DNA from: Mesorhizobium sp. M7A.F.Ca.US.006.01.1.1
Lineage (GTDB): Bacteria > Pseudomonadota > Alphaproteobacteria > Rhizobiales > Rhizobiaceae
Direction of reading: 5' to 3'
Length of the DNA stretch: 64,000 nt
NCBI RefSeq assembly: GCF_003997935.1
Contig: NZ_RZQL01000002.1
Location: 1 to 64,000 of the forward strand
A program made the position numbers and the translations under genes. The notes beneath the pieces were generated by a model that did no database searches, was not told the DNA's origin, and saw only the letters and a list, made by a program, of their open reading frames with translations. Positions 13,299 through 16,145 of this stretch are shown piece by piece; the first letter of the stretch is position 1, and each line of letters starts with the position of its first letter.

Positions 13299-16145
13299 TC
13301 ACTCGGCTGCTTGGAGACTCTGTGCGTTGATGATGACCCTGATCTCGGCGCGGCAGGAGCCGCAATTCGTGCCGGCATGCAGGGCCGCGCCGATTGCCGC
13401 AACGCTGGCGCAGCCGCGGCGTACCGCTTCCGCGATCTGGTTGGCGCCGACGCCGAAGCAGGAGCAGACGATGGCGCCGCGATCGACGTCGATCCCGCCC
13501 GGCCGCCCGGCCACGATCGCCAGCCTGCTGCGCCGATCGACATGATCGGCACTCAACTGTTCCGCCGCCCAGCCGCGCGACACGGCGACCGGACCGGGCG
13601 CGACGAACAAAGCCCCAGACAGTTGATCGCCGTCGAAGGCGGCGATGCGATGCTGGCCGGCGTTGTGGTCATGATAGGCTGATATTTCGGCACCCGATGA
13701 CGCGCCGAACAGTGATCCGGCAAAGCCGGCCCAGTCGATGTCGTCATCGGCAAAGGCAAGCTCGACCCGCCAGCCGTCCTTGCATTTGGCCGCGGCCCAA
13801 TAGGCTGCGGCATCAGGCGCCGGCCTCTGCCGCGTCACCGCAAAGCCAAAGGCCCTTGCCGCGAATTTCTCGATGCGGGCGGCAACATGTTTCAGCGCCG
13901 GCTGGCCGGAAATGGGATCGGTCAGCGGCGCGGTCAGTGTGTCGAGCCGGCCCCTTGCCGAGAACTGGTCGGTCCAGTGCATCGGTGCAAACAGGCTGCC
14001 TTGGCGCTGGCGCGCCGTCACCAGCGCGCGCACCAGCACATCACCGCGCGGGCTGGAAACGCGTGCGATGTCGGCGTCGCCGATGCCGAAGCGCTGCGCA
14101 TCCGCCGGGTGGATTTCGACAAAGGGCTCGGCGATGTGCTGCGAAAGCCGCGGGCTTTTGCCGGTTCGCGTCATGGTGTGCCAATGGTCGCGGATGCGGC
14201 CGGTGTTGAGGATCAGCGGGTAGTCGGGACTGGTGCGGACTTCCGTGGTCGGGCGGATGGCAATGAAGCGCGCCTTGCGATCGGGTGTGTAGAAGTTGCC
14301 GTCGGCGAAGAAGCGGGTGGTGCTACTTTCTGGTTTAAGTTCAGCTTGAACACCCCCCTCTGTCCTGCCGGACATCTCCCCCGCAAGGGGGGAGATTGGC
14401 AGCTTTGATGGCCGCACATCTCCGGCATCGTTGGTAGTTGGCGAAGGCCGTGGTGGCAGCCAATCTCCCCCCTTGCGGGGGAGATGGCCGGCAGGACAGA
14501 GGGGGGTGCCTTGGCTCGGCGCCGGCCATTGGAACGGCTCCAGCGCCTCATACCCCTCCGCATCAACTCCGGCATAAACACCAATGTCGAAATCCCGCAC
14601 ACCATCATTCTCGAACCCCGACAAAGCGGCGTGCTCAGCAAAAATCTCCCCCGGCGTGGCGTGCGAAAACGCCTCGCCGAACCCCATCCGCTTGCCGACC
14701 TCGGCAATGATCCGCCAGTCGGGCAGCACCTCGCCAGGCAGCTCCAAAAAAGCCCGCTGGCGCGACACCCGGCGTTCGGAATTGGTGACGGTGCCATCCT
14801 TCTCGCCCCAGGCGGCGGCGGGCAGCCGGACATGGGCGTGGCGGACGGTGTCGGTCTGGGCCAAGACGTCCGACACCACGACGAACGGGCACGCCTTGAT
14901 CGCCGCTTCGACGGCATCGGCGTCCGGCATCGAATCGACCGGGTTGGTGGCCATGATCCACAGCGCCTTGATGCGCCCGTCGGCCAGCGCCTGGAACATC
15001 TCGACCGCCTTCAGGCCGGTTTTTTCGGCCACAGTCGGCGCGTTCCAGAAGCGCTGCACACGGTCGCGATGGTCGGGATTTTCGATCTCCATATGCGCGG
15101 CCAGCATGTTGGCCATGCCGCCGACCTCGCGCCCGCCCATGGCGTTGGGCTGGCCGGTCACCGAAAACGGCCCTGCGCCTGGTTTGCCGATGCGGCCTGT
15201 GGCCAAATGGCAGTTGATGATGGCGTTGACCTTGTCGGTGCCCGACGACGACTGGTTCACCCCCTGGCTGTAGACCGTCACCGTCTTGGAGGTCGCGGCG
15301 AACAGGCTGTAGAAGCGGCCAAGTTCGTCCTCGCTCAGGCCCGTGGCGGCGGCGACGCCGGCCAAGTAGAGCGCCGAGGCGGCGAAAAGCGCCTGCCCGA
15401 AGCCGGTCGTGTGCGTCGTGACATAGGCGCGGTCGAGCGCGTTGTGCTGGCCGAGATAAGCGAGCAGCCCTGTGAACAGGGCGACGTCGCCATCGGGCGC
15501 GATCGCTAGGTGCATGTCGGCGATGTCAGCAGTCATGGTGCGGCGCGGATCGACCAGCACGATCTTCATCTCCGGCCGCTTTTCCCGGGCAGCCGCGATG
15601 CGCTGGTAGAGCACCGGATGGCACCAGGCGAGGTTGGAGCCGACCAGCACGATCAGGTCGGCAAGCTCCAGATCCTCATAGGTTCCCGGCACGGTGTCGG
15701 AGCCGAAGGCGCGGCGGTGGCCGGCAACGGACGATGCCATGCAAAGGCGCGAATTGGTGTCGATGTTGGCCGAGCCGACAAAGCCTTTCATCAGCTTGTT
15801 GGCGACGTAATAGTCCTCGGTCAGCAACTGGCCAGAGACATAGAAGGCAACCGCATCCGGGCCATGCTCGGCGATGGTTTGCGAGAAAGTCGAGGCGACG
15901 AGGTCGAGCGCCTCGTCCCAGCCGGCGCGGCGGCCGTGGATCTCCGGATGAAGCAGCCTGCCGTCGAGATCGACGGTCTCGGCCAATGCCGAGCCCTTGG
16001 AGCAGAGCCGGCCGAAATTGGCCGGGTGGTCGGGGTCACCGCGGACGGACACTTGCCCGTCCGCGGCGACCTTCGCCAGCACGCCGCAGCCCACCCCGCA
16101 ATAGGGGCAGGTGGTCCTCACCTCGCGCGCTTCCTCAATCTCCAT
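13299..16145 (-). CDS. nasA: Assimilatory nitrate reductase catalytic subunit NasA
   Basis: Cytoplasmic molybdopterin enzyme reducing nitrate to nitrite, 948 residues. The N-terminus has the [4Fe-4S] ligands Cys13, Cys16, Cys20 and Cys48. Mo-bis-MGD binding regions follow, and the C-terminus carries a BFD-like [2Fe-2S] module (CSCFGVGANQIAEAV, then NCGSC). It is about 50 residues longer than expected because a palindromic repeat element has been translated in frame as residues about 546-599, between the catalytic part and the molydopterin-dinucleotide-binding domain. It is the last gene of the nitrate operon, 3 bases after nirD. Confidence 0.93.
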   Translation of the reverse strand: MEIEEAREVRTTCPYCGVGCGVLAKVAADGQVSVRGDPDHPANFGRLCSKGSALAETVDLDGRLLHPEIHGRRAGWDEALDLVASTFSQTIAEHGPDAVAFYVSGQLLTEDYYVANKLMKGFVGSANIDTNSRLCMASSVAGHRRAFGSDTVPGTYEDLELADLIVLVGSNLAWCHPVLYQRIAAAREKRPEMKIVLVDPRRTMTADIADMHLAIAPDGDVALFTGLLAYLGQHNALDRAYVTTHTTGFGQALFAASALYLAGVAAATGLSEDELGRFYSLFAATSKTVTVYSQGVNQSSSGTDKVNAIINCHLATGRIGKPGAGPFSVTGQPNAMGGREVGGMANMLAAHMEIENPDHRDRVQRFWNAPTVAEKTGLKAVEMFQALADGRIKALWIMATNPVDSMPDADAVEAAIKACPFVVVSDVLAQTDTVRHAHVRLPAAAWGEKDGTVTNSERRVSRQRAFLELPGEVLPDWRIIAEVGKRMGFGEAFSHATPGEIFAEHAALSGFENDGVRDFDIGVYAGVDAEGYEALEPFQWPAPSQGTPLCPAGHLPRKGGDWLPPRPSPTTNDAGDVRPSKLPISPLAGEMSGRTEGGVQAELKPESSTTRFFADGNFYTPDRKARFIAIRPTTEVRTSPDYPLILNTGRIRDHWHTMTRTGKSPRLSQHIAEPFVEIHPADAQRFGIGDADIARVSSPRGDVLVRALVTARQRQGSLFAPMHWTDQFSARGRLDTLTAPLTDPISGQPALKHVAARIEKFAARAFGFAVTRQRPAPDAAAYWAAAKCKDGWRVELAFADDDIDWAGFAGSLFGASSGAEISAYHDHNAGQHRIAAFDGDQLSGALFVAPGPVAVSRGWAAEQLSADHVDRRSRLAIVAGRPGGIDVDRGAIVCSCFGVGANQIAEAVRRGCASVAAIGAALHAGTNCGSCRAEIRVIINAQSLQAAE
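14351..14508. repeat. Large inverted-repeat element inserted in frame inside nasA
   Basis: Two 50-bp arms (14351-14400 and 14459-14508) are reverse complements with one mismatch and are separated by 58 bases. Each arm itself contains the smaller palindrome CTCCCCCGCAAGGGGGGAG. The translated stretch (about residues 546-599 of NasA) is rich in Pro and Gly (ISPLAGEMSGRTEGG on one side, PLCPAGHLPRKGGDW on the other) and has no counterpart in NasA enzymes I know. The element keeps the reading frame open. Such G/C-rich palindromes are normally intergenic in Mesorhizobium-type genomes. Confidence 0.8.

Follow-up and report, generated by a model that had tools for sequence, protein, structure and literature searches.

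The gene for the catalytic subunit of the assimilatory nitrate reductase of Mesorhizobium sp. M7A.F.Ca.US.006.01.1.1 contains a palindromic repeat that is read in frame, and its presence in nasA was confirmed. The 158 bp are very probably one copy of a dispersed rhizobial palindromic repeat, located in the NasA linker that joins the catalytic part to the C-terminal cofactor-binding domain and translated as a floppy, near-neutral loop. Translation is inferred, without peptide data. Under the proposed mechanism, the ribosome would translate the element and leave the enzyme with this loop. Selection would retain open frames, so that copies persist in length-tolerant loops (out-of-frame genic copies were not counted). 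Once resident, a palindrome would be refreshed through copying on the hairpin template and through exchange with other copies by recombination, and would frequently be deleted.

The palindrome in nasA and its predicted translation

The window, i.e. the whole stretch of 64,000 nucleotides that was analyzed, harbors the following features at this locus.

13299..16145, minus strand: nasA, assimilatory nitrate reductase catalytic subunit, 948 aa, intact frame (domain matches and PDB matches of the model)
14351..14508, minus strand: palindromic repeat element, residues ~546-599 of NasA (inverted repeat, ORF, family copies in the same genome)
14456..14508, minus strand: first arm in coding direction, encodes TPLCPAGHLPRKGGDWL (inverted repeat and translation)
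14404..14455, minus strand: loop separating both arms (inverted repeat)
14351..14403, minus strand: last arm in coding direction, encodes KLPISPLAGEMSGRTEGG (inverted repeat and translation)

The two arms (14351-14403 and 14456-14508) comprise 53 nt each, are 96% complementary and enclose a 52-nt spacer, 158 bp in total. Inverted repeats were detected with a 12-base seed, extended outward with up to two mismatches, at a distance of at most 300. No inverted repeat in the window is longer than that of the nasA element, which scores 49 matches; in 20 first-order Markov windows, the best one reached at most 17. For the coding-strand RNA of the element, a minimum free energy of -132.3 kcal/mol was calculated, versus -65.1 (sd 4.2) in 200 shuffles (z -15.9). 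Rfam gave no match anywhere in the window at the gathering score.

NasA comprises the domains Molybdop_Fe4S4, Molybdopterin, Molydop_binding and Fer2_BFD (BFD-like [2Fe-2S]), all in one frame, and this frame stays open across the element. By codon arithmetic, residues 546-599 are placed between PF00384 (end 486) and PF01568 (start 644). The initial annotation had put a palindrome of these coordinates between the catalytic and the C-terminal Mo-cofactor-binding regions, with about 53 added residues and a kept frame. The inverted-repeat search, the 948-aa ORF and the domain borders bear this out. Only the arms, given as 50 bp with 49 of 50 matching, turned out slightly longer. The frames upstream of nasA are presumably nirD and nirB. 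Among named genomes, the closest NasA was found in Mesorhizobium.

An AlphaFold2 model of NasA, based on 66 aligned sequences, has a mean pLDDT of 83.2 and an otherwise confident fold. A periplasmic nitrate reductase accounts for its four top PDB matches, with TM-scores (by target) of 0.88-0.89. Residues 551-608 are modeled without secondary structure at a pLDDT below 50. Low confidence at this stretch together with normal fold matches leads to the prediction that the added stretch is a floppy linker and that the enzyme is otherwise normal. The surface loop that had been expected is thus supported by the model alone as an unstructured region, while its surface exposure was not computed.

All 37 nasA loops analyzed are open and divisible by three in the nasA frame, in comparison to 33 of 124 readings of other loops. 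The latter represent 62 other family loops on both strands and include copies in other genes. The copies are related, and the contrast is therefore not a clean probability. As far as sequence can tell, the element is read through; peptide, transcript and activity data are lacking. In one nasA allele (L175, genome G029), the element is not in frame and two TGA codons occur in the matching frame that follows, so nasA can be broken at this site. This allele is either broken or a sequencing error.

Distribution in NasA, in the genome and in other genes

NasA loci from named genomes (a set of 80, with L084 unreadable at the loop) yielded the full element in three of 79 cases: L031 from M. temperatum, L032 from a Mesorhizobium metagenome bin and L038 from Xaviernesmea oryzae. 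Two loci (L033, L046) contain a recognisable remnant, and 74 have neither. Within the genus, 127 of 146 Mesorhizobium genomes showed a NasA match at E 1e-150. Some of these matches belong to a second, ~70% identical type, which lacked the element in all seven loci read. Of the closer type, 80 loci were read, and 78 have loops divisible by three without a stop; the out-of-frame L175 and L204 with an assembly gap were excluded. Outside all nasA counts are L174, a second NasA copy, as well as L182 and L190, whose contigs end in the loop.

The element is present in 42 of the 78 usable loci, with identical site, frame and outer orientation in 42/42. In the remaining 36 loci, which lack the full element, the loop is short, contains another insert or retains only a remnant (APSQGTPLWPEGGIQAG, APSPGAPLWPPEGDAWARRPEGPV). 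Deletion is suggested by remnants like APSQGTPLWPEGGIQAG. On the NasA tree, presence requires about 20 parsimony changes, or 22 losses if the root had the element. Shuffled tips required 26.1 steps on average (minimum 17), which leaves only a weak tree signal of presence. Tree and permutation figures rest on genes that recombine. Side-by-side comparison of nasA alleles with and without the element revealed no clear target-site duplication by eye, and the insertion is therefore inferred from the alleles. Judged by the loci compared, the element is not ancestral to NasA.

An alignment of NasA from related strains had been proposed in the initial annotation, with conservation of the 53 residues in distant genera as the outcome that would refute an insertion. 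That outcome did not occur in the named genomes, and both filled and unfilled alleles exist in the genus. The insertion reading gained support; the element is, however, not private to this strain.

Two side observations concern the loci left aside. L174 (G082), the second NasA copy with 70% identity, has a loop with a shortened piece resembling the element (RRGEMSGRTKGGAL). Three assemblies (L182, L190, L204) end or show an N run at the nasA loop, hence short-read genomes may undercount copies.

In its own genome, the family occupies 60 places among the loci read, six of them pieces of less than 100 nt. One place was entered twice and L010 was omitted as identical to L005, so that the total remains 60; L010 was also left out of the open-frame census. 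The assembly consists of 562 contigs with 6.49% contamination. The 155-nt elements in L005 (1509-1663, contig C111) and L010 (contig C63) are identical and are followed by different DNA (one side checked), which hints at recent copying provided that no assembly artefact is involved. Family relatives were detected in 178 of 72,556 plasmid records, from Rhizobium, Sinorhizobium, Shinella and others, with 138 of the 178 in Rhizobium or Sinorhizobium. In the 60 of these records that were listed, no gene lies under the best match; some records are unannotated and the gene table is incomplete. The phage records searched contained no family relative.

For the genic census, a frame had to be open across the element and to extend by 40 residues or more on both sides. 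This yielded 28 frames outside nasA, 20 of which were covered by a Pfam scan. Both flanks of the element were assigned to one and the same host protein in five cases: CobN, GlyS, a UvrD/PcrA helicase, pyruvate dehydrogenase E2 (in its linker) and an ABC transporter ATPase. For CobG, a single NCBIfam match above the cut-off (residues 67-413) spans the element at 296-355. At least seven in-frame genic copies, nasA included, are thus counted in this genome. By predicted frames and domain matches, they lie inside several conserved, unrelated genes, and the expectation of further intragenic copies was met. Open frames such as those of an FAA hydrolase (L005) and LeuA (L349), in which the element precedes the recognized domain, were excluded from this count. 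The cobG copy (L260 168-364, contig C320) has 55-nt arms with 100% complementarity. C320 holds both the cobN and the cobG copies, i.e. two filled cobalamin genes. The one-contig genome G038 has filled nasA, cobN and ABC ATPase genes among 30 loci read, and also a filled E2 gene.

Half-units outside nasA were counted in the own genome with a strict pattern that misses diverged ones. Arm positions 9 and 18 pair in 81 of 83 (T-A 50, G-C 18, C-G 13; exceptions T-C and C-C). This indicates a small hairpin in each half-unit, with pairing kept through changes. The half-units of the own nasA have one T-A and one T-C. In the GlyS, E2 and UvrD copies, the half-units are oppositely arranged, the inverted repeats reach only 27-29 nt, and the peptides appear in reversed order.

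Loop occupancy, turnover and rival explanations

Loops of four host proteins were compared after searches in 146 (GlyS, E2) and 41 (UvrD, CobN) genomes. Only the best-matching loci were read, and the samples are for this reason biased to filled alleles. The best 30 of 146 GlyS loci contained the element in 11 cases, other inserts in two and a short loop in 17. The corresponding numbers for the best 30 of 146 E2 loci were 11 with the element, three with another insert and 16 with the ordinary alanine-proline linker. In UvrD (L376-L395, best 20 of 41), five loci have the element, four a second kind of insert and 11 other loops. The element is present in 20/20 of the best 20 of 41 CobN loci, and about 22 of the 41 CobN match spans cross the element region. 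All 100 stretches read are divisible by three. In other genera of the family, 20 CobN loci were fetched, several of them unreadable; L418 has the element in its loop, L419-L421 have different inserts, and the loop is short in L423-L425, L431, L433 and L434.

The nasA loop also accommodates other DNA. A second kind of insert stands there in, e.g., L181, L198 and L212; chiefly its 22-33 nt end recurs, with 19 matches including itself. A third insert is nested in frame inside the nasA palindrome of L176 (1962-2075) and L205. It represents a dispersed repeat with 18 matches in the genome of L176, including itself. The family had been proposed to colonize genes at tolerated loops. Seven in-frame genic copies agree with this, but the same loops hold other inserts too. 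A wider reading of core-enzyme variation in Rhizobiaceae is somewhat favored: length-tolerant loops would be repeated landing sites for various translated inserts, palindromes included, which are swapped, inverted or deleted in frame with the enzyme working. The inside of the palindrome would be renewed by hairpin copying and recombination, and the loop would change independently of its gene.

Arm statistics are based on 37 of 43 nasA copies (left out: L176, L205, L165, L157, L173, L038), and the divergence table on 32 after removal of five further copies. Pairs of copies (496 in total) were sorted into four nasA-divergence bands; within every band, the arms are ~96% identical and the loops 62-67%. 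Correlation of loop similarity with 12 flanking 150-nt windows gave Mantel values of -0.06 to 0.08, versus 0.39 between the two nasA sides. For the tail following the element, a weak correlation with the loop was obtained (0.12; p about 0.02, 552 pairs). Oriented loops have a similarity of 0.632 among nasA copies, in comparison to 0.595 and 0.613 for other family loops. These data indicate a turnover of the element that is not coupled to its gene; separate insertions at a hot site are still possible.

An inverted palindrome interior occurs in one of 43 nasA copies (L149) and in six of 20 CobN copies (L401, L404, L406, L408, L410, L415). For CobN, both strands give 33 forward and 33 inverted readings, and only CobN-coding readings were counted. 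In five of 43 nasA copies, complementarity reaches 16-19 nt into the gene with at most two mismatches, because one flank became the complement of the other. The direction is left into right in L150, L159 and L163 and right into left in L146 and L149, judged by comparison with the flanks of the remaining copies. Converted flanks are what copying across the hairpin would leave. Both such copying and recombination among copies are inferred, with no donor copy identified.

For arm position 29, where changes are paired (GG 9, TT 26, mixed 2; n=37), no arm-to-arm correction is claimed. Ten steps are needed on each side and 11 jointly; shuffled tips need 9.0 on average, so this position is without tree signal. 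The paired changes are accounted for just as well if the entire interior of the element was swapped.

It is hardly tenable that the 53 residues belong to NasA as a long-standing functional part and were not inserted. A related peptide does occupy the site in 42 of the 78 usable genus loci, but 74 of the 79 readable named-genome loci are without it, the same DNA exists at dozens of other places in the genome, and its presence in the genus is scattered, as the 20 parsimony changes or 22 losses indicate. It is also very improbable that the element remains untranslated, whether by excision from the mRNA or the protein or by ribosomes that pass over it at the strong hairpin. The RNA hairpin is indeed very stable. 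Neither removal nor skipping would need an open frame, however, and open, in-frame loops in 37/37 nasA copies, related as these are, count against both when set beside the 33/124 other readings. Unlikely, too, is a recruitment of the peptide to a role in regulation, partner binding or protection, which would explain its recurrence in the same loops. Site, outer orientation and frame recur, and the first nasA arm has G at position 9 in 36/37 and C at position 18 in 37/37 copies, in contrast to T and A, which are commoner in the other half-units of the own genome (50/83). Arms are, however, also alike in copies without a recognized gene, and arm conservation is thus no evidence for a protein function. 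Presence changes often, the same loops house other inserts in other genomes, and the model gives the stretch no structure.

For the nasA copies, many separate insertions at a hot site, as opposed to one old insertion with turnover, remain a real though doubtful possibility. Loop identity does not track nasA relatedness by the Mantel values above, and nasA loops are barely more alike than other family loops are. Against separate insertions stand the nearly fixed positions 9 and 18 of the first arm, the same outer orientation and frame in 42/42, the existence of deletion remnants, and the tail that weakly tracks the loop.

Relation to known repeats

The best-known in-frame palindromic elements come from two intracellular bacteria of small genome size, Rickettsia and Wolbachia. 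The presence of such translated elements in a tRNA synthetase subunit, pyruvate dehydrogenase, cobalamin enzymes and nitrate reductase of large rhizobial genomes would uncouple the phenomenon from genome decay. The palindromic elements of Rickettsia (RPE; Ogata et al., 2000, 2002) are in-frame translated repeats according to the accessible parts of a paper by Delihas (PMC2229807) and of a second source (PMC10969869), with a Wolbachia counterpart named in the reference list. A 2024 MITE review, as far as its available text goes, regards a similar route of protein evolution as conceivable in other prokaryotes (PMC10969869).

On the same partial sources, RPE and the rhizobial family share palindromes of ~100-150 bp, many copies, locations in frame within conserved genes as well as intergenic ones, and tolerance by the enzyme. 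The likeness to the protein-coding palindromes of Rickettsia, drawn in the initial annotation, holds for stem, copy number, genic frame and empty alleles: a 158-bp long-stem palindrome occurs at 60 places and in seven genes, with alleles lacking the full element in 36 of 78 nasA loci. Differences concern the hosts, here Rhizobiaceae with large genomes (sequences were not compared), the other inserts taken up by rhizobial loops, and the inversion and exchange of the inside of the palindrome.

RIME and Bru-RS are likewise dispersed palindromic repeats of Rhizobiales, and possibly of the same broad kind as the nasA element, an inference without comparison of sequence identity. Both are regarded as intergenic in the portions of the literature at hand (PMC2573895, PMC2267715), unlike the seven genic, in-frame copies found here. 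ERIC and the 107-bp Correia/NEMIS MITEs are small repeats with open frames fused to host genes, as given in the accessible part of the source (PMC2229807). In contrast to these, the nasA element has much longer, near-perfect arms and no target duplication that is clear by eye. In-frame palindromic elements in rhizobia were not found in the open-access literature searched, a weak negative with subscription papers mostly outside, and three arm strings had no match there.

Filled and unfilled alleles across many species make it directly testable whether the element provides new protein sequence or is merely tolerated. GlyS alone was located in every one of the 146 genomes, each of a different species.
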